Below are positions 2,295 to 19,400 of a stretch of DNA of 64,000 bases, piece by piece. The position numbers were made by a program, and so were the translations under genes. Every line of letters starts with the position of its first letter. Positions within the stretch are counted from its first letter, which is position 1. Under the pieces are notes generated by a model. The model was not told where the DNA came from and did not search any database. It worked only from the letters and a program-made list of their open reading frames with translations. The stretch spans positions 1-64,000 of the forward strand of contig SHMX01000009.1 in the NCBI GenBank assembly GCA_008080745.1, given 5' to 3'. This DNA comes from Candidatus Thorarchaeota archaeon (GTDB lineage Archaea > Asgardarchaeota > Thorarchaeia > Thorarchaeales > Thorarchaeaceae).

Positions 2295-2459
2295 TACGCA
2301 TTTTTGCAAATTATGATAAATTTGCGATATGCAGATTCTCATGGAATCTGCAACACAGACGAGCGGGGGAAGGACAAAAGTTACTTACCTCTTCGTCCAC
2401 TGTTGAGCACCCTATTTTCATTTTGCATTGATTATTTGGTTGAGTGGATACTAGGTTTC
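2295..2459 (+). repeat. Cassette repeat, copy A
   Basis: This copy begins at TACGCATTTTT and lacks the 16S-like leader. It contains two small hairpins (TTTGCAAATT with its partner, then GCAGATTC with GAATCTGC). Next comes the conserved hairpin GACGAGCGGGGG ... CCTCTTCGTC. GTTGAGC follows at 2402, then a T-rich stretch, then GTTGAGT at 2439. It lies downstream of the plus-strand OB-fold gene. Confidence 0.9.
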
Positions 2460-2496
2460 AGATATCCAATCAATAGTGCTAACCCGGCAAAATGGA

Positions 2497-4539
2497 TCAA
2501 TTCTGTTTTTCTTCCTTCATCTCATCCAGAACCTGTTGAGTTTCTGCTAGTTCCCGCAACCTCTCATACTTCTCTCTACGAAGATGTCTGATTGTTACAA
2601 GTACAATCACAGTCGCAACTGAAAGTGATGTCAAGGTTATCGGGAAACTATGATATTGTATGACTTCAAGGAGTGGAACCTGGGGGTCTAAGGGGTTCCA
2701 TCCGTTATAGACCTCCCATCTATCAGAAATATCGTCTCCATCTGTGTCCCAGAGATTGGGGTCTGTTCCGTGAAGGTACTCGTCAAGATTCATTAGTCCA
2801 TCCTCGTCCAAGTCAAAGAATGCATCATCAATTAAGGGATTCAGACCATTAGTGATCTCCCAGTGGTCCGCCATTTGATCACCGTCTGAGTCAGAACTAG
2901 TCGGGTCTGTATTGTATATATTATACTCTTCTGCATCACTTAGAAGGTCTCCATCTGTATCATTGTCGAAACGGTCAGTTCCAATCTCGTTCTCTAGATA
3001 GTCTGGTAATGTATCCCCATCTGAGTCTCCGCAGTCTCCCAACTTGAAGAGAAACCCATTGTCAAATCCGCTGGTTTGGGAGAAGTTCTTGGAGTTAATC
3101 ACTGGAAAGTCCTCCGAAATGGTTTCCCCTACTCCAATGATACATCCATCCTCCGATAGATGTATTGCTCTTGGAGTATCTCCCTTTGACCCCCCTACAA
3201 GTACAGAGTATTGCAACGTGTTGCTGAACTTCACTACAAAACAGTCATCTAATCCTGAGTACATTGAGATATACTGTCCATATATCCGAAAATCTGTTGA
3301 TCTAGTAAATCCCCCGAGATATATTTGGCCTTTAGTATCTACACACACCTCCGATGCTTCATCCATGTTCATCCCTCCTATTAGAGTTGACCATATCAAA
3401 TTATTTTGACTACTATCGAGTCGTAAGATGAACGCATCATTCGTTCCATTCAGAGTTCCATCATACGGGTTGTCTGTCAGAGGGAAATCTTCTGAATAGG
3501 TAGTTCCACAGATGATGATCTCCTCACCTGTGGGAACGATGTTTCTTGGAAAGTCGTCATCACTTCCCCCAATTCTTAGAACGTCTGCGACATCAAATGA
3601 TCTATCCAGAGATACGATGAGGCAGTCAAATTGACCCAGTGACCCCTTAGTTTCAAAGGTCTGTAGTGGATATACTACTTCTGTTGAGTCTGTGTATCCG
3701 TATAATCTGAATATCGCCTGTGTATCGATACAGCAATCTGTACACCTATCCTCTCCATCACCTCCAATCATTCTGGAGACAACTATCGTGTCGGAGGTCA
3801 AATTCCTGATTGTGAAAAACATATCCGATACACCTCCTTTGAATCCTCCTTGGGTGCAGTTGTAGACGGGAAAATCATAACTAAAGGTAGTACCCACTAT
3901 GTATATTTCCCCTTCTTGTAACAGCCCGATTTTTGATGGAAATTCATACGAGTCTCCTCCTATCAGTGATGAATACACAATCGTTCCATTAGCGTCTACC
4001 ACTGTGATGAAGCAGTCTGAATTTTCAATCGAAGGAATTCTATTATATGTCGAGTTTACAATTGGATAATCAGTTGAATATGTGTATCCTGTAACGATGA
4101 TATTCCCGTTTGCATCAAGTGCAATGCTTGTGGGAAAATCGTCTCCGGTCCCTCCAAACCTACTCAAAGCTACGATACTGTCTTCTTCCATATCACCTTG
4201 TATGATTACACAATCATAGTCACTATTATTGCTGATTTTTTTCGCTCCTAGGAAGTCATCAGAATTGGTCCGGCACAATGCATAAATCTCCCCATTTGTA
4301 TCTTCGACGATATCTACAATTCGATCTCGGTAGTCTCCCCCAATGATAGTTGAGTAGTAAAATGGATTAGTTGGTATATTTGATTGAGATTTACAGGTAA
4401 ATATCCCTTCTAACTCTCGATCTTGCCTCTCTATTAGCGAAATGGAAACGTATACCTCTGATACCCCGATACTAACAAATAGAAAAAAAAGAAGAATGAA
4501 ATGAAACTTCTTGAATGTCATATGATATTTCTCAAACAT
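2497..4539 (-). CDS. Secreted beta-propeller protein with Ca-binding-type repeats and C-terminal membrane anchor
   Basis: The 680-residue protein starts with a hydrophobic signal or anchor segment (residues ~12-28). Residues ~60-480 hold repeated propeller units of the SBBP type, with motifs such as GGDGDD, IALDANGNIIVTGY and STDYP recurring about every 60 residues. Residues ~500-620 contain aspartate-rich, thrombospondin type 3-like units (DSDGDTLPDY, DTDGDLLSDAEEY, DLDEDGLMNLDEY, DTDGDDISDRWE) that should bind calcium. One transmembrane helix (~635-655) and a charged tail follow. It is probably an extracellular binding or adhesion protein on the archaeal surface. The next gene on the same strand encodes another secreted protein 41 bp upstream, so the two may be co-transcribed. 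Confidence 0.8.
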   Translation of the reverse strand: MFEKYHMTFKKFHFILLFFLFVSIGVSEVYVSISLIERQDRELEGIFTCKSQSNIPTNPFYYSTIIGGDYRDRIVDIVEDTNGEIYALCRTNSDDFLGAKKISNNSDYDCVIIQGDMEEDSIVALSRFGGTGDDFPTSIALDANGNIIVTGYTYSTDYPIVNSTYNRIPSIENSDCFITVVDANGTIVYSSLIGGDSYEFPSKIGLLQEGEIYIVGTTFSYDFPVYNCTQGGFKGGVSDMFFTIRNLTSDTIVVSRMIGGDGEDRCTDCCIDTQAIFRLYGYTDSTEVVYPLQTFETKGSLGQFDCLIVSLDRSFDVADVLRIGGSDDDFPRNIVPTGEEIIICGTTYSEDFPLTDNPYDGTLNGTNDAFILRLDSSQNNLIWSTLIGGMNMDEASEVCVDTKGQIYLGGFTRSTDFRIYGQYISMYSGLDDCFVVKFSNTLQYSVLVGGSKGDTPRAIHLSEDGCIIGVGETISEDFPVINSKNFSQTSGFDNGFLFKLGDCGDSDGDTLPDYLENEIGTDRFDNDTDGDLLSDAEEYNIYNTDPTSSDSDGDQMADHWEITNGLNPLIDDAFFDLDEDGLMNLDEYLHGTDPNLWDTDGDDISDRWEVYNGWNPLDPQVPLLEVIQYHSFPITLTSLSVATVIVLVTIRHLRREKYERLRELAETQQVLDEMKEEKQN

Positions 4540-6420: not shown

Positions 6421-7188
6421 TTGATTGTGATGATGACAATTGCACCAAGGATGGTAGGAGATTATCCATTCAACACTGACGATGCCACTGCCTTAGTTTC
6501 ACTGCTGGATGGGAAAATTGGGGAGAATTTGAAACGGATGATGTTGGATTTCTATCCTGAAACTATTTCCCAATTATTTTCAGATCCTGAAAAATCCCGT
6601 TTGGAAGCTCTTGCAGGATATGCAAATCTTCAGAGAGCACTTCGACAGATTCAATTAGATGAATCAATTTTCTCAACTGTCCAAAACAAATATGGTTCTG
6701 TTATCTATGCGAATTTATCTTTTTCCTTGAAATCATTAGAAACTCTGATAACCCCTCTCCTGATGTCTGTTACTCAGCCCACCTCGATCGAATATGAGCT
6801 TTCTGATGAGCAATTAGATGAATTAACGGAGCAGTTGAGGTCATTTGTACTCAATTCTCAAGACTTTCCCGATGCTACTCGATTGAAGGAAACAGGAAAC
6901 CAGGACCTATTGTCCGAACTGGTAATGGCGTTCAATATTGGATTATTCATTGTCCTCGTCTTTCTGGTGATCAATTTAGCCAAATCCAAACATGAATTAT
7001 CTGACGTGCAGATATCCGAAATTGAAACTCTCCTTCGTGATTGGTCTCAAGAAGTCCTAGCTCAACTCACTCTCTTCGGACCTGTGAAACCTCAAGATGT
7101 ACACACTATTAGCTTGGTTGGAATTGATGCTGATGAAGAGGATGTAGAGCTTGCTGATTCATTCTCTGGATATGTAGATGAGGAGTAG
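6421..7188 (+). CDS. Membrane-anchored protein upstream of mazF, possible antitoxin
   Basis: The 255-residue protein is mainly helical, with one clear transmembrane helix at about 168-188 (MAFNIGLFIVLVFLVINLAK). An ~165-residue part precedes it and an acidic tail follows. I recognise no family. The stop overlaps the start of the mazF-like gene by 11 bp, so the two are translationally coupled, as in toxin-antitoxin operons. By position it is the candidate antitoxin. However, MazF antitoxins are normally small soluble DNA-binding proteins, so it could be an unrelated first gene. The second codon region has several ATGs and the exact start is uncertain. Confidence 0.6.
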   Translation: MIVMMTIAPRMVGDYPFNTDDATALVSLLDGKIGENLKRMMLDFYPETISQLFSDPEKSRLEALAGYANLQRALRQIQLDESIFSTVQNKYGSVIYANLSFSLKSLETLITPLLMSVTQPTSIEYELSDEQLDELTEQLRSFVLNSQDFPDATRLKETGNQDLLSELVMAFNIGLFIVLVFLVINLAKSKHELSDVQISEIETLLRDWSQEVLAQLTLFGPVKPQDVHTISLVGIDADEEDVELADSFSGYVDEE

Positions 7189-7555
7189 ATTGATAGTGTC
7201 CTCTCCATCATCTTTCAATGTTGGAGATATTGTATTTGTAGATTTAGAACCTGTAAAGGGGCATGAACAGGGCAGAAATCGTCCTTGTGTAGTTGTTGCA
7301 ATTCCCACCAAGCAATCCTCTGGCCGAGGGCATTTTAATCTCCTTATAGTGGTCCCTCTAACATCACGTGAGCGGAGATGGTGGACTGTGGTCAAAATCC
7401 CTAATCAATCTGGACTTATTTCAGTATCTTATGCACTCTGTCATCAGATTCGGTCTATTTCCACAAAACGTGTTTTGAATACCACAGGTGCGATTCGGAA
7501 TAAAGATCTTATGAAGATTCGAATTGTCTTGGGTGGTGTACTCTCGATTCCCTAA
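7178..7555 (+). CDS. mazF: MazF/PemK-family endoribonuclease toxin
   Basis: The 125-residue protein has the MazF hallmark near its start: GDIVFVDLEPVKGHEQ, then RPCVVV. A conserved central strand (VVPLTS) and a C-terminal helix (IRIVLGGVL) follow. Its length matches the family's 110-130 residues. MazF toxins are mRNA and rRNA endoribonucleases that cut at short motifs and stall translation. The start overlaps the preceding gene by 11 bp. The stop codon abuts the ATCACCTCCT end of repeat copy B. The family call is firm. The cleavage motif cannot be read from sequence. Confidence 0.88.
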   Translation: MRSRLIVSSPSSFNVGDIVFVDLEPVKGHEQGRNRPCVVVAIPTKQSSGRGHFNLLIVVPLTSRERRWWTVVKIPNQSGLISVSYALCHQIRSISTKRVLNTTGAIRNKDLMKIRIVLGGVLSIP

Positions 7556-7680
7556 ATCACCTCCTACGCATTTCATGCAAATTTCCAAGAAATTTGCGAT
7601 AACATACAGACGAGCGGGGGTCGGACAAACAGTTACTTGCCTCTTCGTCCACTGTTGAGCACCCTTTCATTTTCTTTATT
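7556..7680 (+). repeat. Cassette repeat, copy B
   Basis: The copy starts directly after the mazF stop with ATCACCTCCT, the last 10 nt of a 16S rRNA 3' end. Next is a hairpin (GCAAATTT / AAATTTGC), then GACGAGCGGGGG ... CCTCTTCGTC, then GTTGAGC at about 7654. The downstream GTTGAGT half is not recognisable here. Confidence 0.9.
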
Positions 7681-7787
7681 CTTGTCAGGATGAGTGAAGG
7701 TCAAAATTTTATCAATTCTGATTCTATCTCCCTAAAACTTTTTTAATAACTCTCATCATTATTGTTATACATTCTGGTGGGATTTGA

Positions 7788-9158
7788 TTGCAAATAGAAG
7801 TATACTTTGCTCAACTACGTAAGAGAGTGGACTGGATAGGACCCAAGTGCCTTATTGCAATGATCGGTCTATCCTTGGTACTGCTAATTGCTACCGTTGA
7901 AACGTCTCTCATTGAGGAGCCATTTGATTTCTCCACAACCCTTTCAAGCATCGGTGTTGTAGCATCTGTCTTCACCTTCGGAATCCCCTTTTCAATTGGA
8001 GCTGTGGTGATGTGGACTACACCAAAAGCTCACCAATCCATGTTGCGCACAGAACCAACCTCCTCATACATAAGAAGAACCTATCTCTCTCGGTTGATTC
8101 TCTCAACAGGACTGTCTTTCTCTGTTCTCTTCATCGGTGCCCTCGTCGGATTTGTGATCTATGGTGGAGATTTCACCTATTTCCCCTCGGTTCTTGTAGC
8201 CTCTCTTCTGGTTGGCATGATGCTTACTCTCTTGGTCTTTTCCCTTGCTCTATACTTGGACTCGCCAAAGTACACTCTTGTGATATCCACCTTGTTGTTC
8301 CTGTTTCTATCCTTTGAATTTGGTTGGTCTCCTCGGTCTGCAGATGACATATTCTCTCTCTGTACTCCGTATCATCTTTTCAGATATCTTGCTGTAATCC
8401 TGTCTGGATACCAATTTCCTCATGAGCAGGCAATGGAGCACTACATGGGAGTATATGCTGACTTCACCGTTCTACTAGGTCCTCTTCTGCTGTGGAGCAT
8501 AGCATCTGTGTTCTCAATCCTCGGATCATTATATCTGTTGAAGGGGAATATGATGCAATGGAGGAAGGAGTCATCTACGTGGGATGATGGAGCCCTTGGT
8601 TCAATGGAATCTCAACCTTCAGGTATGGTCGTTCATACTCATAAAAGAATCAAGATCATGGCAATGTTGATCGTGATACTCTTTTCGGCAGCTACCATAT
8701 TCAATACAGTCCTAATTCCTGCTGGTAGACAGATTCCAGAGGAGTTCTATCTCTATCAGAGTCCGGAAACGGGGGAACCAATCACTCTTGGCTCATGGAT
8801 GTACGATTCAGTCTACATCTCAGACACCCTTCTCTCACAGACAGATGGTTTCACATTGATGGTCACTATTCTGGAATGGGGTGGATATAGTGGGGATGAT
8901 GGCCTCCAAGTCAAGTATGATATGGTTTCTCTCTCAGTATCACAATTCGAAGCGATGAACGAAACTGAACGTGAAGATGCTATTTATCCCACTTCTCGAG
9001 GTCTAACTCCCGATAGACCCGCAACAGGTCCTGGCGTGCAACATTCGATAGATGATGCTGGCACCTATCTATGGGCTTTTCGATTTACGGATACATCTAA
9101 CGAAACTGCTGCCTATACCATAGTAGTGTTCATTGAAATATACTTCAATCCTGTCTAA
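7788..9158 (+). CDS. Multi-spanning membrane protein, ABC-2 permease-like
   Basis: The 456-residue protein starts at TTG. It has about seven hydrophobic segments: six in residues ~20-260 and one at ~285-305. A ~150-residue domain predicted to be extracellular follows, ending in a beta-rich tail. The layout resembles ABC-2 type permeases, but no ATPase gene is adjacent and I see no diagnostic motif, so the transport role is only an inference. It lies between repeat copies B and C and is not a toxin-antitoxin gene. Confidence 0.6.
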   Translation: MQIEVYFAQLRKRVDWIGPKCLIAMIGLSLVLLIATVETSLIEEPFDFSTTLSSIGVVASVFTFGIPFSIGAVVMWTTPKAHQSMLRTEPTSSYIRRTYLSRLILSTGLSFSVLFIGALVGFVIYGGDFTYFPSVLVASLLVGMMLTLLVFSLALYLDSPKYTLVISTLLFLFLSFEFGWSPRSADDIFSLCTPYHLFRYLAVILSGYQFPHEQAMEHYMGVYADFTVLLGPLLLWSIASVFSILGSLYLLKGNMMQWRKESSTWDDGALGSMESQPSGMVVHTHKRIKIMAMLIVILFSAATIFNTVLIPAGRQIPEEFYLYQSPETGEPITLGSWMYDSVYISDTLLSQTDGFTLMVTILEWGGYSGDDGLQVKYDMVSLSVSQFEAMNETEREDAIYPTSRGLTPDRPATGPGVQHSIDDAGTYLWAFRFTDTSNETAAYTIVVFIEIYFNPV

Positions 9159-9288
9159 TCATCTGAATTAGTAATCGATAAATGCAGGAGTTTTCCCGTT
9201 ACTAATAATATTTATTAGATAGATAATAATATTCTGTTAGTGTGGTTGGAATTGAAATGTTTCGTAGATACGAGATGTTATTCTTATC

Positions 9289-9960
9289 ATGGGAAATGAG
9301 ATTATGAAATTAGGAAGAATACCTACTCGTGTAGGTGCTATGCTATTTGTAGTTCTTTTTGTGATATATGCTAATCCGACTCTAGTTGCAGCTACATTTG
9401 GTGGAAGTGACACTCCAAGTTATGATGTATCTTCTGGAAGTGGAGGAGAATATGATATTGTTCGTGCGAATTCTGCCAATGGTGTTTGTGAAATTCGTGT
9501 TAAAGAAAAGAGTTGGCCTGCATCCTACCCGGATGACTACGTAGGATATGCATACGTTGGTGTGGAATTTGTTCCTACCGAGGATATCGGTAACAACTGG
9601 AAGCTTATGGCCAGTTGGGATTTGGAATATGAACTGAAAGCAAATTGGTGGAGTTGCATTCGAATTGATGTGGTACATTCTGTTCGTGATGAGAATTACA
9701 ACAGACTCTGGCCTTCCCAATCCAAATATAGTGTTGAACTAGCATCAACTGGTATATTCTATGAATCTACAGGTGCTGATTACTCGGGTTCCACAACTGC
9801 ACAGTGGGGTATTGATTTGGATGAAGGCGAAACATACTATTTCTGCATAGAGTTGCTGATTACTGTAGTAAATGGTGGTGCAGTATTTGCTACTAGCTAC
9901 TATGATTCCGACGATCCTGTGTCTTTGACAGTTAATTCCATTTCGTGGAGCTATCTCTAG
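9289..9960 (+). CDS. Secreted beta-rich protein of unknown function
   Basis: The 223-residue protein has a clear N-terminal signal segment (hydrophobic residues ~17-35, ending VAATF). The mature part is rich in aromatic residues, Ser, Gly and beta-strands, with no second membrane helix, and should be exported. ATG 9289 and ATG 9304 are both possible starts. No family was recognised. A strong hairpin terminator and repeat copy C follow. Confidence 0.6.
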   Translation: MGNEIMKLGRIPTRVGAMLFVVLFVIYANPTLVAATFGGSDTPSYDVSSGSGGEYDIVRANSANGVCEIRVKEKSWPASYPDDYVGYAYVGVEFVPTEDIGNNWKLMASWDLEYELKANWWSCIRIDVVHSVRDENYNRLWPSQSKYSVELASTGIFYESTGADYSGSTTAQWGIDLDEGETYYFCIELLITVVNGGAVFATSYYDSDDPVSLTVNSISWSYL

Positions 9961-9980
9961 GAATCCAAACTTTTTCTTGG

Positions 9981-10015
9981 AATCAAGATAATGATATCTT
10001 GATTCTTTTTTTGGG
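9981..10015 (+). terminator. Hairpin terminator
   Basis: A perfect 10-bp stem AATCAAGATA / TATCTTGATT with an ATGA loop is followed by CTTTTTTT. It lies 21 nt after the stop of the secreted protein gene. An outer GGAATCC / GGATTCC pairing encloses it. Confidence 0.75.
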
Positions 10016-10053
10016 ATTCCGACTTGATCCATCTGGTTTCAATGTCCTATCTC

Positions 10054-10275
10054 TAACAAGGTATCCGTAGCGGAAGCTGCGGATGGATCATCTCCTACGC
10101 ATTTTTCGCAGATTTTACAAAATCTGCAATAACAGACGAGCGGGGAAGGACAAACAGTTACTTACCCCTTCGTCCACTGTTGAGCACCTTTTTCATTTTT
10201 GCAATGATTATCCTGTTGAGTGGCAACTAAGTTTCCAGACTCTGGAGATAGTCCCAGATGGCGATGATGGTTTTT
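10054..10275 (+). repeat. Cassette repeat, copy C, with 16S rRNA 3'-end-like leader
   Basis: Positions 10054-10096 read as a 16S rRNA 3' end: TAACAAGG, then helix 45 CCGTAGCGGAAGCTGCGG, then GGATCATCTCCT with one change in the anti-SD. Next are a hairpin GCAGATTTT / AAAATCTGC and a hairpin GACGAGCGGGG ... CCCCTTCGTC. GTTGAGC is at 10179 and GTTGAGT at 10215. The copy extends to a segment around AGTCCCAGATGG that is shared with copy I. Confidence 0.92.
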
Positions 10276-10424
10276 TCTTTAATCGCAGGTGTTACTGAGA
10301 GTCTTATCGCACTTGGGTTGCAACGGGTCACGGACGGTTCCGCCAATGCAATGTCTGTGTTTCCACACAATCAACTCCAAGTTTATTAGATACCAACTAA
10401 ATCATCATCTGTACAGATTGTTCT

Positions 10425-10808
10425 ATGAGGTCGATTCTCATGCCTGAAGATGAAAAAAGAGAACTGGTACGATTCACATATCAATACAGCCCTGATTTTA
10501 GAGAAGAATATGTTACAGGGGCTCGTGGTGGCATCCAAAACATATACCACCTTAGACTTGATTTCTATAATGAACGATCCAAATTACGTTCTCTTGAGGA
10601 TTCACTTGTTGAAGATACTGATGGCTCACGAAGAATCGAACCCACGGAATCATCAAATGAGCCAGATATCATTGAGCGTACATTCAAAGTGGGATTGGTG
10701 TTATCCTTCAATGCTGTTCGTGAACTTTCTCGATTTCTCGCAGAAAAAGTGAAAGAGATAGATGAGATTGAGAGAAAACTCGCTAAGCAAATTACTGGTG
10801 GTGAATAA
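10425..10808 (+). CDS. Small protein, possibly DUF3467-like, heading a VapC operon
   Basis: The 127-residue soluble protein has a middle part (GGIQNIYHLRLDFYNER) and a C-terminal part (FKVGLVLSFNAVRELSRFLAEKV). Together they loosely resemble DUF3467 proteins, where a beta-strand unit is followed by a helix after a conserved S/T-x-x-x-A/V-x-x-L. It overlaps the following antitoxin candidate by a few bases, and VapC follows. The three genes look like one transcript bounded by repeat copies C and D. It may be an accessory to the module, which is inference. Confidence 0.55.
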   Translation: MRSILMPEDEKRELVRFTYQYSPDFREEYVTGARGGIQNIYHLRLDFYNERSKLRSLEDSLVEDTDGSRRIEPTESSNEPDIIERTFKVGLVLSFNAVRELSRFLAEKVKEIDEIERKLAKQITGGE

Positions 10809-11130
10809 AGAGATGATTGATGATGAACACTATGCAAAGGGTCATTCAGATACGGGTACAACTAATCCTGATTGGTACAAGCTAGGTTCGATATCGGATA
10901 TGATATCTAGTTCCAGTATTACCCATATTCATATGGATTCAACTGCATCCACTTCAGCTGATAGTACTCGTTCTACTAAATCATCATCTATTGACAGTCT
11001 GATGAAACTGTTTGGAATATTGGATGAAGAAACTGCAGATGCTATTGAGGATGCCATTGAAGAGTATCGTAAACGTCATGACAAAGCAATGACTAGAAGA
11101 ATCCAGGAGCGATATCATGATCCTTCTTGA
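10801..11130 (+). CDS. Putative VapB-type antitoxin
   Basis: I place the start at GTG 10801 (ATG 10813 is an alternative) because the frame upstream overlaps the preceding gene. The ~109-residue protein is acidic. Its first part has a low-complexity Ser/Thr stretch (residues ~40-65), and its helical end (SLMKLFGILDEETADAIEDA) looks like the toxin-wrapping tail of VapB antitoxins. No clear ribbon-helix-helix or AbrB domain is visible at its N-terminus. Its stop overlaps the VapC start by 14 bp, which supports the assignment. Confidence 0.6.
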   Translation: MNKEMIDDEHYAKGHSDTGTTNPDWYKLGSISDMISSSSITHIHMDSTASTSADSTRSTKSSSIDSLMKLFGILDEETADAIEDAIEEYRKRHDKAMTRRIQERYHDPS

Positions 11131-11512
11131 TACTAGTTTCGTGATAGATCTCATGAGAGGAAATACTGATTGTATGAAGTTGCTTCAAGATACTGAAGCC
11201 AGAGAGGAGGATGTTTTTCTGTCTACCATATCTGTCTACGAATTACTCGTAGGTGTTGCTCATGCAGATAATAAAATAGATGAAGAGCAGAAAATACGGG
11301 AATCTCTATCAGCAATTACCACCATCGATTTCGATAAGTATTCATCCTACGAATCGGGTACCATCTATTCAGAACTGAAGTCGCAAGGTTCTATGATCAA
11401 CTCTTTTGATATTCTCATTGCTGGTATTGCACGAAGACATAACTATTCTGTCATGACTCGAAATGGATCTGATTTCAATCGAATAAATGGTCTTCAAGTT
11501 ATTGAATACTAG
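11117..11512 (+). CDS. vapC: VapC-family PIN-domain ribonuclease toxin
   Basis: The 131-residue PIN protein has the expected acidic residues: Asp5 in LLDTSFVIDL, Glu42 in SVYELLVG, Asp98 in SFDILIAG and Asp119 in TRNGSDFNRI. These bind Mg/Mn for RNA cleavage, typically of tRNA or rRNA (family knowledge). All acidic positions are intact, so the toxin is probably active. It overlaps the upstream antitoxin candidate and is followed by repeat copy D. Confidence 0.9.
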   Translation: MILLDTSFVIDLMRGNTDCMKLLQDTEAREEDVFLSTISVYELLVGVAHADNKIDEEQKIRESLSAITTIDFDKYSSYESGTIYSELKSQGSMINSFDILIAGIARRHNYSVMTRNGSDFNRINGLQVIEY

Positions 11513-11547
11513 TTTCTGTTTTTCATTTCGTAATCATTGTTTATCTC

Positions 11548-11731
11548 TAACAAGGTATCCGTAGCGGAAGCTGCGGATGGATCACCTCCTACGCATTTTA
11601 TCGCGAATTCTCATGGAATTCGCAAAACAGACGAGCGGGGGAAGGACAAACAGTTACTTACCCCTTCGTTCACTGTTGAGCACCCTTTTCATTTTTGCAA
11701 TGATTATCCTGTTGAGTGGCAACTAGGTTTC
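11548..11731 (+). repeat. Cassette repeat, copy D, best 16S rRNA 3'-end match
   Basis: Positions 11548-11590 (43 nt) read TAACAAGG, then helix 45 CCGTAGCGGAAGCTGCGG, then GGATCACCTCCT with an intact anti-SD. The hairpin CGCGAATTC / GAATTCGC and the hairpin ACGAGCGGGG ... CCCCTTCGT follow. GTTGAGC is at 11675 and GTTGAGT at 11711. The leader is identical to copy C apart from one base in the anti-SD. Confidence 0.93.
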
Positions 11732-11784
11732 ACGTGTATCCTTATATCCGTCAAAATCTAACTACTCTTAGAGGTCTGATTCCC

Positions 11785-11982
11785 TTGGCTACAAAGACTA
11801 TCACCATTTCAGAAGAGGTCTATAACCTATTGGAGAAGATGCTCCTTCCGGGTGAGAAGATAGAGGATGCGATACTCCGCCTGTGTGGTATCAAGAGTAG
11901 TCTTCATGATTCTGATTTTGAAAAGGGTCTCGAAAAGATCATCACTGAAGATGCAGAGCTTCTCAAACGACTTGCAAAATAG
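11785..11982 (+). CDS. VapB-like antitoxin of the Doc module
   Basis: The protein starts at TTG 11785, giving MATKTITISEEVYNLLEK, a typical VapB/ribbon-helix-helix antitoxin start. A GAGGT motif 10 nt upstream supports it. The upstream in-frame ATG at 11716 lies in repeat copy D and is unlikely. The ~65-residue protein has a DNA-binding strand-helix and then an acidic helical tail (FEKGLEKIITEDAELLKRL). Its stop touches the GTG start of the Doc gene, so the two are coupled. Confidence 0.75.
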   Translation: MATKTITISEEVYNLLEKMLLPGEKIEDAILRLCGIKSSLHDSDFEKGLEKIITEDAELLKRLAK

Positions 11983-12383
11983 TGCGTGGTGCATACTTCG
12001 TGAGATATTTGACCTATGATGAGATCCTGTCTATCCATGACCGTTTGATAGAATTCTTTGGTGGCGAGAGTGGTGTTTTTTCGGTCAATGCATTGGAGAA
12101 CTGCGTATCCCTCCCTATGATGTCAGTATTTGGAACTGAGACCAATCCCACAATCTGGTCAAAAGCTGCAGCACTTCTTTATTGTATACTCATTCGTCAT
12201 CCCTTTGTTGATGGAAATAAGAGGACTGCTTGGACCGCTGCGAAGCTCTTTCTCTATCTCAATGGATATGACCTACAAGTTGACGTGGATGATGCCTAGG
12301 CAAAGATTCTCAGGATACTGAAGGAAGCGTCATCAAATGATTCGATTGCAGAATGGCTTGAACAGTGTTCTACGAAAATATAG
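11982..12383 (+). pseudogene. doc: Doc (Fic-fold) toxin with premature in-frame TAG
   Basis: The frame from GTG 11982 has the Doc motif HPFVDGNKRTAW (His73 to Arg81), which in Doc phosphorylates elongation factor Tu (family knowledge). It meets TAG at 12297-12299 after 105 codons and continues in the same frame for 27 more codons to TAG at 12381. The extension (AKILRILKEASSNDSIAEWL) is a normal Doc C-terminal helix, and the total of ~132 residues fits the family. A single GAG to TAG change would explain it. The truncated form keeps the catalytic motif but loses a core helix, so it is probably inactive. Confidence 0.7.
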
Positions 12384-12398
12384 TTTCTTCATTGCTTT

Positions 12399-12540
12399 CT
12401 ATGCATTTTTCGCAAATTCCATGAGAATTTGCAAAACAGACGAGCGGGGGAAGGACAAAAGGTACTTGCCTCTTCGTCCACTGTTGAGCACCCTTTCTTC
12501 TTTTGCAATGATTGTCTGGTTGAGTGGATCATAGATTTCG
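12399..12540 (+). repeat. Cassette repeat, copy E, without the 16S-like leader
   Basis: It starts 16 nt after the original Doc stop at CTATGCATTTTT. The hairpin GCAAATTC / GAATTTGC is followed by GACGAGCGGGGG ... CCTCTTCGTC. GTTGAGC is at 12483 and GTTGAGT at 12519. Confidence 0.9.
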
Positions 12541-12803
12541 CATTCTTATTGTGACCGTTCATTGTTTATTGGACAATCTTGGACATCAGAGCGTTGGCCT
12601 CCCAGGTAACGGCACTGGGTGAGACTCTGTCCTGGTCAGGGATACTATGTCTTTCAACCATATCTTTCCTCCGTATCAAGCTATATAAACCCCTATCGGA
12701 ATCGGTCCAGCAATATCCAAGTTTTAAGAAGATGTTCGCAACCCCTTACTTGTTGAAATTGTTGATTTTATATGTATATGTACTCATATGTATGGTGATC
12801 GAA

Positions 12804-13046
12804 ATGGCAAAGAACATCGCTTTGGCAGAAGATGTCTACAGAGACCTCAAACGTATGAAAAGAGAGGGTGAAAGTTTTAGCGACCTGATTCGAAGACTGT
12901 TGAAGACAAGAGGGGCGATTTCCGACCTTGCAGAATCTGCGACACTCAGTACTGAAGAATGGTTGGAGATGAAAAGACTGAAGGAAGAACAAGCGGCTCT
13001 TGATGAGAGCCGAACAGATATTCTTCTCTCAAAACAAGAAGGGTGA
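12804..13046 (+). CDS. vapB: VapB-family (DUF217-like) antitoxin
   Basis: The protein starts at ATG 12804 (ATG 12792 is an alternative): MAKNIALAEDVYRDLKRM, then GESFSDLIRRLL, the classic archaeal VapB/DUF217 ribbon-helix-helix pattern. The rest is a charged helical toxin-binding region. In-frame sequence upstream to 12579 lacks this character and contains a TATA-like stretch at about 12767-12780, so I exclude it. VapC follows after 6 bp. Confidence 0.8.
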   Translation: MAKNIALAEDVYRDLKRMKREGESFSDLIRRLLKTRGAISDLAESATLSTEEWLEMKRLKEEQAALDESRTDILLSKQEG

Positions 13047-13052
13047 TTTTTC

Positions 13053-13457
13053 GTGCCACTCTTTGATACGAGCTTTCTCATAGATCTCACTAGAGGTGAC
13101 GTTGGTGCTATATCCGCCGCAAAACAGGTCGATGGAACCGCTGACATTAAAGCGGTATCTGTGGTGACGGTCCACGAGTATTTACGAGGGGTCTATTATC
13201 ACCACATCGGGAAGAAAACGCTGGATGGTAAGCTCCGTAAAGCTCTCACAGATCTTGCGCATTTTGAACAACTGGAATTCACTCCCTCCATTGCACGAGA
13301 AGCTGCATATACCGATGCTCTGTTACTCAAGCATGGAACTACGATTCCCTATGCTGATGTTGTAATTGCAGCAACCGCAAAGCATCACAATATCCCTTTG
13401 GTCACACGTGATGCTCATTTCAGAGCTATTGATGATATTGTATTGATAGACTACTAG
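13053..13457 (+). CDS. vapC: VapC-family PIN-domain ribonuclease toxin
   Basis: The 134-residue PIN protein starts at GTG. Its acidic active-site residues are in place: Asp5 (LFDTSFLIDL), Glu42 (TVHEYLRG), Asp102 (PYADVVIAATA) and Asp120 (TRDAHFRAI). It is the toxin of the upstream VapB. Eight bases separate its stop from repeat copy F. Confidence 0.9.
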   Translation: MPLFDTSFLIDLTRGDVGAISAAKQVDGTADIKAVSVVTVHEYLRGVYYHHIGKKTLDGKLRKALTDLAHFEQLEFTPSIAREAAYTDALLLKHGTTIPYADVVIAATAKHHNIPLVTRDAHFRAIDDIVLIDY

Positions 13458-13465
13458 ATGCCCTA

Positions 13466-13640
13466 GTATCCGTGGCGGAAGCTGCGGATGGATCACCTCC
13501 TACGCATTTTGCAGATTCATGATAATCTGCAGTATAGACGAGCGGGGGAAGGACAAAAGTTACTTGCCTCTTCGTCCACTGTTGAGCACCCTTTCATTTT
13601 TGCAATGATTGTCTGAATGAGTGTGAACTAGACTCTTGTG
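13466..13640 (+). repeat. Cassette repeat, copy F, with 16S rRNA 3'-end-like leader
   Basis: Positions 13466-13501 read GTATCCGTGGCGGAAGCTGC and then the anti-SD GGATCACCTCCT. One A-to-G change in the helix 45 stem still pairs (G-U). The hairpin GCAGATT / AATCTGC and GACGAGCGGGGG ... CCTCTTCGTC follow. GTTGAGC is at about 13580. The second motif is degenerate (GAATGAGTGTGAACTAG). Confidence 0.92.
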
Positions 13641-14026: not shown

Positions 14027-14199
14027 TCAGATTGGTGGACTCAACCAAACTCGATCATCATGATATCCACCATAAGGTGCTGCATCACATTGATGTTGGT
14101 AGTCATAGATTGCGGAAAACGGATATAACAGTCCCCATTCGTAGTCCATGACATCGAAATGAACGAATGATGTATCCCCATCCCTTCTATTGCACAGTC
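14027..14199 (-). pseudogene. C-terminal remnant of a minus-strand gene, truncated at repeat fragment G
   Basis: On the minus strand an open frame of about 55 codons ends at the TGA at 14027-14029. It reads as real protein (NRRDGDTSFVHFDVMDYEWG, later YDYQHQCDAAPYGG) with no start codon. The frame is lost at about 14200, where the repeat-derived GGTTGAG sequence begins. It looks like the end of a gene whose 5' part was removed at the repeat. I do not recognise the family. Confidence 0.45.
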
Positions 14200-14230
14200 A
14201 ATTTGGTTGAGTATGAACTAGGTCTCCAGA
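14191..14230 (+). repeat. Cassette repeat, fragment G (3' end only)
   Basis: Only the terminal portion remains: TTTGGTTGAGTATGAACTAG and then GTCTCC. This matches the second-motif end of copies A, C, D and I. It runs directly into the promoter of the next vapB, and that run-in sequence is duplicated after copy I. Confidence 0.75.
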
Positions 14231-14314: not shown

Positions 14315-14566
14315 GTGAACAATATGGGGTACAAGACAATCTCACTCTCTGAGGAAGCCTATGCTATTTTGAAAAAAGCAAAACGCGAGAATGAGAGTTT
14401 TAGTCAAGTTGTTATCAGGCTCGCACAAAGACGAACATTGAGTGATTTCATAGGATGCATCTCAGAAGAATCAGTAAGTAAACTGACTTATGCACTAGCT
14501 GACTTCAGACAAGAACGGTCCAAGGTCTGGTCAAAAAGCATGGAAGAGTTGGTGAAGGACCAATGA
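14315..14566 (+). CDS. vapB: VapB-family antitoxin
   Basis: The 83-residue protein begins at GTG 14315 or ATG 14324. Its ribbon-helix-helix start (YKTISLSEEAYAILKKAK, then ESFSQVVIRLA) matches archaeal VapB/DUF217 antitoxins, and the C-terminal helical tail would bind VapC. The stop overlaps the VapC start by 4 bp (ATGA). Its first 16 codons have a near copy at 16151. Confidence 0.82.
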   Translation: MNNMGYKTISLSEEAYAILKKAKRENESFSQVVIRLAQRRTLSDFIGCISEESVSKLTYALADFRQERSKVWSKSMEELVKDQ

Positions 14567-14955
14567 TTGCGGACTCGAGTTTTGTTATTGATATTATGCG
14601 AAATGATGAATCGGCACTACAGAAACTTGAACTGATAAAAACGAGTCAGAGTCCTCAATATCTAACATCTCCAACAGTAATGGAACTTGCGGCAGGTATA
14701 TCTCTGGCAAGACTACCAAATAGAGAACAGAATCGAATCGATATTATCATGGAAGAATTCCAAATACTTCCCCTTGACACGGCATCTGCATGGTGGGCAG
14801 GTCTGGAGCTTGGCCGGTTGAAGAGAGAGGGGATGATTGTTGATCCAATCGATGCACAGATTGCTGGCATTGCAGTCAAACATCAGGAAATTGTTGTGAC
14901 CCGAAATATCCGACATTTTGAACGATTCAAAGACTTGAGTGTAGAGTCATACTAA
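14563..14955 (+). CDS. vapC: VapC-family PIN-domain ribonuclease toxin
   Basis: The 130-residue PIN protein has Asp4 (IADSSFVIDI), Glu41 (VMELAAGI) and Asp97 (DPIDAQIAG). The fourth position, in TRNIRHFERF, has His where many VapCs have Asp, a common variant. It forms an overlapping pair with the upstream VapB and is followed by repeat copy H. Confidence 0.9.
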   Translation: MIADSSFVIDIMRNDESALQKLELIKTSQSPQYLTSPTVMELAAGISLARLPNREQNRIDIIMEEFQILPLDTASAWWAGLELGRLKREGMIVDPIDAQIAGIAVKHQEIVVTRNIRHFERFKDLSVESY

Positions 14956-14984: not shown

Positions 14985-15115
14985 AACTCGCAGATCTAGA
15001 AAATCTACAAAACAGATGAGCGAGGGAAGGTTGATGTTTCTATCCCTCACATCACTGTTGAACACTCTATTTTCATTTTTGTTATTATCTGACCGAGTGT
15101 AGCTTAGAGTTTAGG
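14985..15115 (+). repeat. Cassette repeat, copy H, diverged but structure-preserving
   Basis: This copy keeps AACAG / CTGTT, but the inner stem has changed on both sides: ATGAGCGAGGG pairs with CCCTCACAT, where other copies have ACGAGCGGGG with CCCCTTCGT. GTTGAAC replaces GTTGAGC at 15057. The second motif is degraded (CCGAGTGTAGCTTAG). The upstream hairpin GCAGAT / ATCTAC is also diverged. Confidence 0.8.
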
Positions 15116-15167: not shown

Positions 15168-15479
15168 ATGATTACAATGGCACATGTGTTGTCAGTTCGC
15201 TTGGATGAAGACTTGGAGAAACGTCTTGCATTCCTGATGGAGAAACGTAAGATAGTAGACAAGTCAGCCTATGTTCGTCGTTTGATTGATCGTTCACTTA
15301 GAGAAGACCTTCTTGACTTCCTCTCTGGGGAGATTGCTGCAAAACGTATTAGTATGTGGAAGGCTTCTTCAATAGCAGGAATCTCGTTGAGAGCAATGAT
15401 GATTGAGTTAGCAAAACGCGAAATCTCCATCTATGATGAACAATCACTGAAGGAAGATCTGCTCTTTGCAGAGGGATAA
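15168..15479 (+). CDS. UPF0175-family antitoxin
   Basis: The 103-residue protein has a DNA-binding N-terminal half (LSVRLDEDLEKRLAFLME). The C-terminal UPF0175 signature is present: KRISMWKASSIAGISLRAMM, then an AKREISIY strand. UPF0175 proteins pair with DUF3368 PIN-like toxins, as here, with a 3-bp gap between the genes. It probably represses its own promoter, whose TATA-like sequences lie within 30 nt of the start. Confidence 0.85.
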   Translation: MITMAHVLSVRLDEDLEKRLAFLMEKRKIVDKSAYVRRLIDRSLREDLLDFLSGEIAAKRISMWKASSIAGISLRAMMIELAKREISIYDEQSLKEDLLFAEG

Positions 15480-15482
15480 TTC

Positions 15483-15980
15483 ATGATAGGAGTTGTGAAT
15501 TCCTCACCTCTCATTTACTTGGGGAAGCTTGGTCTTGTTAATCTATTGAATGAACTCTTCGATGGCGTATTCACAACGCGTTCTGTGATGAATGAAGTGC
15601 TTGATGATACATCACCCGAGTTTGCTATTCTCACAGATGCCTTTGCATCATGGTTGAATCTGTCTGATGTCATAATATCTCCTCTCTCTACAAAACTCTG
15701 TGAAATGGGGTTACATCAAGGCGAAGTAGATGTAATCACTCTTGCATTCGATATGAGAGAGAAAGGGCCAGTTGTGATTATTGATGATCTTGCGGCACGG
15801 GATATTGGAAGAACTCTTGGATTGTATATAACTGGAACAATTGGAATCATATTGCGTGCTGTGAAAAACAATATGCTCTCCAAAACAGATGCTGTTGTCA
15901 AGCTAAACTATCTCGTACAAGAAACTCCGTTCCGTATCTCTACTAAACTGTACTTGCAAATCTTAGAACAGCTGAGATAA
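15483..15980 (+). CDS. DUF3368-family PIN-like toxin
   Basis: The 165-residue protein has the DUF3368 start (GVVNSSPLIYLGKLGL), a following VMNEVLDD segment, the EVDVITLA region and a conserved IIDDLAARDIGRTLGL. These correspond to the PIN acidic cluster, but the first Asp is Asn, as in some members of this family. It is the expected toxin partner of UPF0175. A partial repeat copy I follows. Confidence 0.85.
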   Translation: MIGVVNSSPLIYLGKLGLVNLLNELFDGVFTTRSVMNEVLDDTSPEFAILTDAFASWLNLSDVIISPLSTKLCEMGLHQGEVDVITLAFDMREKGPVVIIDDLAARDIGRTLGLYITGTIGIILRAVKNNMLSKTDAVVKLNYLVQETPFRISTKLYLQILEQLR

Positions 15981-15984
15981 TCAT

Positions 15985-16100
15985 GCTTCCCCTCGCGTTC
16001 ACTATTGAGCACCCTATTTTTATTTTTGCAATAGTTACTCGGTTGAGTGTTCACTAGGTTTCTAGACTCTGCAGGAAGTCCCAAATGGAAATAGATTCTC
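15985..16100 (+). repeat. Cassette repeat, copy I (3' half)
   Basis: The copy begins inside the second half of the conserved hairpin (TTCCCCTCGCGTTCACT). It has ATTGAGC at 16004 and GTTGAGT at 16042, then GTTTCTAGACTCTGCAGG and AGTCCCAAATGG, as in copy C. The 5' half is missing. It continues into a duplicate of the vapB promoter region. Confidence 0.85.
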
Positions 16101-16270: not shown

Positions 16271-16408
16271 GTCTTTCACTCCAATCATCTGTAGGTCTAT
16301 CTCTCTGAGCGAATTATCGTAGCGGTTCAACCTCAAAAACACGAAACGCGAAACATAGAAATGTGTTTACTCATATTATTTTTCGAATCTGCTTGGGATG
16401 GAGATACC

Positions 16409-19400
16409 ATGGCCCGAAACGCCACCGAAAGGATAGAAGCACGCCAACTAAGAAATTATGAACGTGATGCAATCAGATTAATTCTTTATTCAATTGTAAT
16501 ATGCATTGCTATTCTCCCGTTGATGTCTGGAGATGTACAACAAGTTAGTTTACCTGTGCACGAGCCTGTTAATAACGTCAGTTTATCAGATAATGATCTT
16601 CTGTTGACCATTAGATTGACACATAGCCCTGATTGCATAGCACCCGGTGTTGTGGATAGTTATAGAGGGTTTGCATATGCCGATCAATATGCTGATGTGG
16701 TTCGATTTATAGATCCTATTAATGATGTAACTCTTAATCAAACTATAGAATCTGGAACTGTAGAAGAAACGATTCTTACGGGTGCCGATATTGATAATGA
16801 TGGTAGTACTGAGTTTCTACTAGTTAATGATAATGGCACAGTCAACAATTTACTGGTAGTTGATTTCAATGATGCAACTACAACCATATACAATACCTCT
16901 ATTGAATATCCCACGGATATTGCAACGGGATATTTCAACGATGATACGTTTCTTGATGTTGCTATCTTTGATATATACGGTGTTGAAACACTGGACATTC
17001 ACTCGGACCAGCGTCTTGGAATTTTCATGCATTCGGGTTTTGATACTGATTGCTATTCTATCGGGCGTTTCATTGACCCAACAGAGGACTCTATTGCCTT
17101 GGGCATATACGATGCTGCAAAAAATGGAAATTTCACTATTATTGCTGGTAATGGTACTATTCTGAGAACCACTATGATGCATGTCCCCATAATGGGTATG
17201 GCGAATTTTGATTACGGGCCTGGACTTGATGACCTTGCAATCATGATGTTTGATGGGAATCTTACTACATTATCTCCTTCGACCATGACAGTATTATACA
17301 ACATCACAGGACTTCCTGAAAGGAGCTTGGTGACAACTGGGGTTTTGAATTTTGATGGTCAGACTGACTTGTTAGTTGCTCCTATGCAAGATAATTATAC
17401 TGTGTTCATTGATGGTGCAAATGGAGATATAATTCGGTATTCAGTCAAAATAGCTGGTGTCTTTGAAGGAGCTATTGCCGGAGATCCCCCCTCACCGCTT
17501 ATCGATGGTGGGTTCATTGATGACGATAATCTTACAGATTTTGCTATCCTTGAAGGTACAGCGCGCAGTGCGGCATTTCTCAGAGGGTCCGATGGAAACA
17601 TCGGTTATGAAGAACCAAGTATCTCCAGTAAGCCGACAAACATTAGAGTCTTCGATATCAACAATAACACCCGAGATGATATCCTCGTTCTGGAAGGGAG
17701 CAATGTCTATGTGATGTTCAGTGATGTGACAGCTCCGATACTATATCCAGAAACACTCTCACCGCCTCACCCCACTATTCGAGACCCCTATATCGAAATC
17801 GAGGTGGGTATTGATGATGATACTTCTATCATTCTTGCTGACATTTATTTGCGATTTGAAGACGGGAATTGGTCTCAACCTGTTGATGAGCTTCAAAATG
17901 CAGGAACACAGTATTTTGCATTCTTAGTCGGATTACCCGAAGGTTACTATGAGTACTATCTTGTCTTTCAAGATACTTACTTGAATATCGGAACACTTGG
18001 GAATGAGACTCACCCTGTGAATTTCACTATAGCTGGTAATCTTGCTTGGACTGATACAAAGTATCAATCTACCGCTCTAGGTCATCAGCTGATGGATATA
18101 GGTAACACCTCCACTGGCGAGGAGGTTATCTATACGTTGGATTCGAGCAGTGATGTCATCTATTTGGATCGTTACACGCCTAGGGGTGAAAAACAATCAT
18201 TAGGTGTCGTTGCAAATAGAACTTTCAGCGATTTTTGGATTTACACGGGAATGATGGATGGGGATCATCTTCTAGACCCAATTATTCTACTTTATAATGC
18301 AACCGCTGAGATAGTAAACGTGACTATCTATCACGGAAATACTGGCACACTTTGGTATTCAACTCAGTATCCGTATAATCACATGAGAGATGTCCAATCT
18401 GCTCAAGCTTATGATTGTGATAGAGATGGCATAGATGAGTTCTTCTTTGTATTCGAGAACTCAAGCAATAGCCATGATGTATATCTTGCTCGTTTGAAAG
18501 CAGATGGTTTTTGGTCCAATGTATCTGTCACCGGTGGTAGCTCTGAAACTCATTCACTAAGCTTAGCATATACTTTGAATGATAACACAGCAGAAGCGGC
18601 TTTATCCTCGTCGGGAACAGGTCATGTTGATATCTTCAATGCATCCAGTATGACACTAATCTCAACCCACAATGTGACCCGTATAGAATTCGACATCACA
18701 ATACCAATCTATCTTAGAAATTATCATAATGCGTCAGAATCGCGAACCAAGTTTCTATTGTACATGTACTTCATGGACCCCTCCGGAATAAGTTATGGGT
18801 TCCATGTATTCGATGGTTCCACACCTAGGATTAATGAAACTGTCTTTTTCGAAGGTCACAACGAGCTCTATCTTGATTTGAATATTGTTGACTTGGAGGG
18901 TGATGGAACAGACGAACTGGTGGGTGTCAGCTATATTACTGGAGATATCGCACTTCTAAGGTTAGACACTCCGATTACTGTAGAGTGGTCTGTGCCATTA
19001 AGCACTGCGGATTTCTTGAGTTCTGTTATTGTCGATTTTGATGGTGATGGGCAAGATGAGATTGGAGTCTTTACTAAACAGGATACAATACTGTGGATTG
19101 TCTCTTTGAATGGGAAAATAGAACGTGAATTGAATGTTGGAGAAGGTCATGGTTGTAAGAAATTAAGCAATATCGATCTTGGATATGGTGAAGAGATTGT
19201 ATCTTATCCGCTTGTCCAGGATGGTGTGACAAAGATTGGTGTGATTCGTGATATCGTACTTATCAGACGTCTGAATGCTTCACTCACTTATTCTACAGAA
19301 GAGCTACTTCAAAGTGAATCATTGGACATCTACGTGGATGTAAGCAATATCTATTCGGAAGAAATCCCGGATGCAGAGGTATTTTTCACAGTACACTACA

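Follow-up and report, generated by a model that had tools for sequence, protein, structure and literature searches.

Analysis of a 64,000-nucleotide (nt) stretch of a Candidatus Thorarchaeota genome (positions 1 to 64,000 of contig SHMX01000009.1, assembly GCA_008080745.1; hereafter the window) revealed a series of tandem repeats that are copies of the 3' trailer of the host's own 16S ribosomal RNA (rRNA) precursor. The copies delimit units of one or two genes, hereafter cassettes, and in related genomes such cassettes stand directly behind the 16S gene, in varying order and with boundaries at a common core of the repeat, TGYTGAGC(C)ACCC. This arrangement probably represents a cassette array which uses the 16S trailer as its recombination site and works like an integron, and the window itself appears rather likely to be a segment of such an array belonging behind the 16S gene of this Thorarchaeon. 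The genome is a metagenome-assembled genome (MAG) of 3.16 Mb in 19 contigs, the window corresponding to contig C9.

Origin of the repeat in the pre-16S rRNA trailer

Eight trailer copies (A to H) were identified, first by searching for repeats and then with a profile derived from the copies themselves, all on the plus strand between 2301 and 16062, with nhmmer E-values ranging from 3e-47 to 3e-17 and two copies (G and H) being decayed. The only 16S gene detected in the host lies at C2:589938-592348 and its contig continues for only 34 nt after it. The final 43 nt of this gene (TAACAAGGTATCC...GGATCACCTCCT, C2:592306-592348) are identical to the beginning of copy D (11548-11590, 43/43) and almost identical to that of copy C (10054-10096, 42/43); copy F matches them from about 13467 to 13501 with a single A-to-G change, and copy B retains ATCACCTCCT (7556-7565), the last 10 nt of the gene. 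One of the copies C, D and F reads GGATCAT. Searched over the whole window with at most one mismatch, GGATCAYCTCCT occurs at 7 sites against 0.86 expected, a number reached in none of 100 shuffles, and an Rfam search of the window gave no matches. A first-pass annotation, made from the letters of the window alone, had recognised the 16S 3' end in copies B, C, D and F, and the sequence is present there as it described; the copies it named are real and undercount the set, which comprises the eight copies and one remnant.

The match is not confined to the gene, the last 77 nt of contig C2 (43 nt of 16S end and 34 nt of flank) being identical to copy D over their whole length (77/77). Since it continues through the 16S 3' end into the flank, these alignments show the repeat to be the 3' trailer of the host pre-16S rRNA. 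The derivation from the host 16S 3' end that the annotation had proposed is thereby established, and the alignment with the gene and its flank by which it had suggested to verify it gives identity for 34 nt beyond the gene. Its emphasis on helix 45 and the anti-Shine-Dalgarno sequence needs correction: the shared unit is the trailer with its stem core, and the 16S 3' end is only an occasional left extension, included in three of the eight copies of the window (C, D and F).

A trailer of the same type is found behind the 16S gene in many members of the family, and the named database matches are nearly all Candidatus Thorarchaeota. The core is located just before a T-tract and, in the predicted processing stem of 16S, forms the 3' strand of the basal part: the 16S leader contains TGCTCAACAGTG, complementary to CACTGTTGAGCA of the repeat, and in structure predictions leader and trailer co-fold into a long stem with the CACTGTTGAGCA segment at its base. 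The identity of the contig end with copy D, together with the arrangement in relatives, suggests that the window contig is linked to the host 16S gene.

Several side observations concern these 16S loci. The host 16S gene is split by an insertion that codes for a LAGLIDADG protein (L006, about 2350-3190; PF14528 match at C2:591390-591629). The 16S contigs of this genome (G000) and of G001, G002, G018 and G023 terminate no more than about 150 nt beyond the 16S 3' end, which would be expected if the flank is a repeat. G001 (L136, WJMJ01000049.1, isolate RBin_111), which belongs to the window's genus, is labelled Candidatus Lokiarchaeota, the other named core matches being Thorarchaeota, and this label is probably an error.

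Arrays behind the 16S gene of relatives and apparent exchange at the core

Copies of the own trailer were found in tandem directly downstream of the 16S gene in G017, G059, G004, G011, G027, G148, G151, G032 and G020, with 88-98% identity to the trailer of the same genome. G020 is a one-contig chromosome, matching CP070761.1, and the presence of the same arrangement in it and in many independent MAGs speaks against an assembly artefact, one of the eventualities under which the first-pass annotation would have had to be withdrawn. Its suggestion to look for the element in related Asgard genomes proved fruitful, arrays standing directly behind the 16S gene in Thorarchaeota relatives and in a second family described below. 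Its remark that no rRNA gene lies nearby is correct for the window contig and fails for these relatives, and the host 16S contig itself ends inside the repeat. Most copies in the relatives contain no 16S sequence at all.

The pattern of core plus T-tract was detected at 79 distinct sites in 25 of the 41 genomes of the family (4 in the reversed control), clustering on one strand per array, and when 30 loci were oriented by majority, only a single profile match did not fall on the array strand. The intervals between copies (n = 78) have a median length of 1.3 kb and hold mostly one or two open reading frames (ORFs); 105 cassette ORFs run along the array direction and 69 of 174 are antisense to it. 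Among 106 cassette proteins, Pfam searches identified parts of toxin-antitoxin systems (PIN, VapB, Fic, ParE, UPF0175) as well as GNAT acetyltransferases, methyltransferases, alpha/beta hydrolases, a Na/H exchanger and an AlkZ-like glycosylase, and PADLOC added one Cas12f/TnpB-like and one Csx1-like protein. A TnpB/Cas12f-like gene is located within an array unit of G061 (L097:2872-4095), and a cassette of G017 (L067:14952-15500) apparently encodes an HNH-type endonuclease according to a reading of its motifs by eye.

The boundaries of the cassettes coincide with the core. Over 51 copies from 13 arrays, identity to the own 16S trailer amounts to 0.83 in the 60 nt ending at the core and to 0.54 in the 60 nt beyond it, shuffled sequences giving 0.50. 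Homologous cassettes with different neighbours in different genomes align from 12-22 nt before the core end to 9-18 nt after the next core, and one such pair, again with different neighbours, displays 96% identity from -19 to -2. They retain their own left part of the repeat and swap partners at the core. The clearest case is the pair G004.4 and G023.1, 96% identical inside and embedded in unrelated flanks, the trailer part of G004.4 being of a type foreign to the 16S trailer of G004. Some units end in barely more than the core, for instance L091:4087 and the copy at 2692 of the reversed L104. The order of the cassettes differs between G004 and G023; the cassette adjacent to the 16S gene in G032 occupies the third place in G004 (90.5% identity), the one adjacent to it in G017 is internal in G061, and the 456-amino-acid (aa), VapBC and Fic cassettes of the window are ordered differently in its genus-mate G001. 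Composed of tandem cassettes with a common end repeat that are exchanged at a fixed point, the arrays correspond in this respect to integrons, and the patterns suggest that cassettes move by recombination at the core.

A second Asgard family (f17) harbours arrays in G123, G146, G127 and G141 and a weaker one in G113, and no array was present in the stretch read of its members G083 and G143; the right flank of the G143 16S trailer recurs at an inner copy of G146 (96%). The trailer of this family is unrelated to that of Thorarchaeota and ends with CTCGGGGTTCYTGTATTCTTTGGAGG and a T-tract. Its leader holds the complement CCTCCAAGGAAAACAAGAACTCCGAGA (predicted pairing), and through this complementarity of the leader to the trailer end the breakpoint would again be situated at the base of the processing stem. 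One copy of G146 opens with GATGGATCACCTCCT. Because the site is shared between the two families by position and not by sequence, it seems that function at the 16S transcript end is what defines the target, or that the enzyme has co-evolved with its target. In 17 loci from nine other Asgard families (f2, f3, f4, f11, f13, f16, f18, f21 and f23) no array was found. A third family is represented by G045 (f10, L165), in which a single copy of the 16S flank, 73 nt long (85%), occurs 3 kb downstream of the 16S gene.

Cassettes of the window

From copy B onward, the genes preceding the copies encode, in order, a MazF-like toxin, a 223-aa protein, VapC, Fic/Doc, VapC, VapC and DUF3368/PIN; these and all other features given below lie on the plus strand, the copies being located by nhmmer and the toxin and antitoxin genes by Pfam. 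Copy A (2301-2459, E = 2.8e-42), without 16S part, has its core CACTGTTGAGCACC at 2398-2411. The cassette pair before copy B (6421-7555) consists of a 255-aa ORF and a MazF/PemK-like toxin (7178-7555; PemK_toxin, E = 3e-19), and copy B (7556-7708), whose core is at 7650-7663, is followed by a cassette (7788-9960) encoding a 456-aa membrane protein and the 223-aa protein, also present in G001 with 81% DNA identity. Copy C extends over 10054-10235 (core 10175-10188). Between it and copy D stands a cassette (10425-11512) made of a 127-aa ORF, a VapB-like gene (10762-11130) and a PIN/VapC toxin (11117-11512), the homolog of which in G001 (L064:1430-2484) occupies a changed place in the order.

Copy D (11548-11731, core 11671-11684) and copy E (12388-12539, core 12479-12492; no 16S part) enclose a VapB-like antitoxin with a Fic/Doc toxin (11716-12299), a cassette that G001 also possesses among other neighbours (84% DNA identity). 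The next cassette (12579-13457) contains VapB (12579-13046) and PIN/VapC (13053-13457) and leads to copy F (13467-13634), with 35 nt of 16S 3' end and its core at 13577-13590. The remnant, corresponding to the right end of a trailer copy (...GGTTGAGTATGAACTAGG), is found at 14184-14225 (repeat families D4 and D7). Further on come another VapB and PIN/VapC cassette (14315-14955), the decayed copy G (14986-15111, E = 4e-24, core CACTGTTGAACACT at 15053-15066), whose flanks match copy k of G001, a cassette with a UPF0175 antitoxin-like gene and DUF3368/PIN (15168-15980), and the decayed copy H (15979-16062, E = 2.5e-17, core CACTATTGAGCACC at 16000-16013), the last copy found in the window. Directly past it, a 1849-aa FG-GAP/invasin-like protein is encoded at 16361-21910.

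In the window's genus, the shared unit reaches about 45 nt past the core (10190-10235, 11686-11731, 12494-12539 and 13591-13634), up to GGTTGAGTGG..ACTAGG with a second GTTGAG motif. The right halves of the repeat are alike within a genome and different between genomes, as if homogenised.

Proposed recombination at the trailer, rival explanations and known systems

According to the explanation that we favour, a unit, made up of one or two genes and the host-trailer copy behind them, sometimes with the last part of the 16S gene, would be gained, lost or reordered by recombination between the core of the incoming cassette and another core, either in the 16S trailer or in a further cassette. The insertion point would lie between the processing stem and the terminator, leaving 16S processing intact and restoring the trailer, in a mode comparable to the use of transfer RNA (tRNA) 3' ends by integrative elements. 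The integration site restoring the rRNA end, one of the possibilities raised in the first-pass annotation, is upheld in that trailer copies bound the cassettes behind the 16S gene and recombination appears to take place at the stem base, and needs correction in that the shared unit is the trailer with its core. We find a trans-acting recombinase at the core more likely than plain homologous recombination, and the enzyme could perhaps be of an unrecognised type or be supplied from outside.

Several results weigh against this explanation. The tyrosine recombinase family PF00589 is absent from the array genomes G000, G011, G017, G020, G059 and G061 (86-99% completeness), all 14 control genomes having given matches; the serine recombinase family PF00239 is absent from G011, G017, G020, G022, G059 and G061, and PF16795 from 16 of 17 genomes, MAG completeness of 77-99% limiting these negative results. 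The cores of the two families are unrelated, a finding better explained by a shared position than by a single conserved enzyme. The extension of the shared unit in the window's genus and the look of some breakpoints, which seem to lie further right, make an additional breakpoint at the second GTTGAG motif possible in this genus. Similarity to the own trailer is not correlated with distance from the 16S gene and does not decay along the arrays, so that no such gradient supports growth at the 16S end.

Some other array genomes carry PF00589 proteins of no assigned kind, and LAGLIDADG_3 (PF14528) gave no match in G004, G020, G022, G059 and G061 and is present in others; tyrosine, serine and SSV-type recombinases and LAGLIDADG endonucleases, none of them universal in array genomes, were accordingly rejected as the common factor. 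A tRNA target was likewise rejected, neither the window nor any of 14 loci downstream of 16S genes containing a tRNA.

The main rival dispenses with a dedicated enzyme and considers the trailer copies as portable homology, recombining with the 16S trailer or with another copy by ordinary or short-homology processes (RadA-type or end-joining), gene conversion keeping them host-like. The resemblance of the copies to the trailer of their own genome, the identity of copy D with the 16S flank over 77 nt, the array genomes devoid of tyrosine or serine recombinase and the unrelated cores of the two families all speak for it. It does not easily explain junctions confined to about 12-22 nt between unrelated flanks, units ending in barely more than the core, or the fact that in most copies from 13 arrays homology stops on the right side at the core, and we regard it as possible and the less likely. 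The RNA-level origin, in which spliced or terminated transcripts ending at the trailer would be reverse-transcribed into the locus, the stem being an RNA-processing substrate, would agree with the position of the junctions, which in either family coincide with the base of this stem and adjoin a T-tract; it is highly improbable in view of the large share of antisense cassette ORFs, and we know of no RNA intermediate or partner enzyme.

True integrons or clusters of attC sites lacking integrases (CALINs), as reported in Asgard archaea (PMC9668308), would account for the array layout, the cassette size and the toxin-antitoxin content, and the core fits GTTRRRY as GTTGAGC in 65 of 107 sites. The core reads GCTGAGC in 32 of these 107, however, the R'' complement was never found exactly (0/104) and was found 16 times with at most one mismatch against 11.4 expected, and several array genomes have no PF00589 protein, which makes this interpretation very unlikely. 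An attC structure of the repeats was refuted, RYYYAAC occurring 6 times against 10 expected and a complementary R'' box not being enriched. Tandem accretion of autonomous integrative elements of virus or plasmid type, with the 16S 3' end as attB, is suggested by the 16S part of copies C, D and F and by the HeimM2 and HeimV2 elements of Heimdallarchaeum between 16S and tRNA-Arg (PMC8813620). We judge it very unlikely, the units holding only one or two genes, no integrase figuring among the 25 most frequent of the 70 Pfam families of the 106 cassette proteins, the array loci lacking tRNA and the core having no match in the viral contigs of IMG/VR. An expression of the copies as 16S 3'-end decoys, raised in the first-pass annotation, or as regulators of neighbouring toxins could invoke the helix 45 and anti-Shine-Dalgarno sequence kept in copies C, D and F and the presence of a MazF-like toxin; as a main function it is not supported and it is the least probable of all, most copies in the window and in relatives being devoid of any 16S part and many cassette genes not being toxins.

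Genomic islands targeted to tRNA genes insert at the 3' end of a stable RNA, restore this end and can form tandem repeats in one direction, as is the case here; in the present arrays the target is the 16S processing stem and trailer, the units measure about 1.3 kb and no integrase ranks among the 25 most frequent Pfam families of their proteins. R2-type retrotransposons and rRNA introns with homing endonucleases also exploit the rRNA gene as a safe harbour and insert inside the mature rRNA, whereas here the mature 16S is left untouched and the trailer is copied. Integrons and CALINs are alike in their tandem one- or two-gene cassettes, each ended by a recombination-type repeat with a crossover near its 3' end, in their shuffled order and toxin-antitoxin content, and in repeats that are more similar within a genome. 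They differ in that here the repeat is the host pre-16S trailer without attC R''/R' pairing, GTT is not conserved, the anchor is the 16S gene instead of attI beside intI, several array genomes contain no IntI-type protein and genes are found in both orientations. Integrons of Asgard archaea were defined by attC and IntI, rRNA being unmentioned in the text (Ghaly et al. 2022, PMC9668308). HeimM2 and HeimV2, located between 16S and tRNA-Arg(TCT) of Ca. Heimdallarchaeum, are single large elements of 8 and 44 kb that were suggested to have inserted with the help of a homing endonuclease (Wu et al. 2022, PMC8813620). They too are mobile DNA placed immediately after the only 16S gene of an Asgard archaeon; tandem trailer copies or a cassette array are not described for them, LAGLIDADG_3 was not found in five of the array genomes and the loci tested here contain no tRNA.

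Searches of the open-access literature, covering archaeal integrons, mobile elements of Asgard archaea and rRNA attachment sites, yielded no account of arrays made of trailer copies. The system differs from integrons in its site, its anchor and apparently its enzyme, and is integron-like in its way of working. We consider evenly balanced the broader proposal that the arrays of the two Asgard families belong to an undescribed class of gene capture, in which the base of the processing stem would be the recombination site, cassettes would be exchanged across genera by a putative recombinase (or by use of an RNA-processing or termination site) and the 16S gene would anchor a store of accessory genes. 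If true, gene-cassette capture would have been achieved a second time, apparently independently of integrons, in archaea related to eukaryotes and with the cell's most conserved gene as the dock; the 3' end of the 16S gene and the stem, both conserved, could allow cassettes to move between genera. It gives a concrete target to search for, a recombinase for the core TGYTGAGC(C)ACCC, and offers a reason for the frequent breaks of 16S contigs just past the gene in MAGs of these archaea. It also shows where Thorarchaeota store toxin-antitoxin and other accessory genes.

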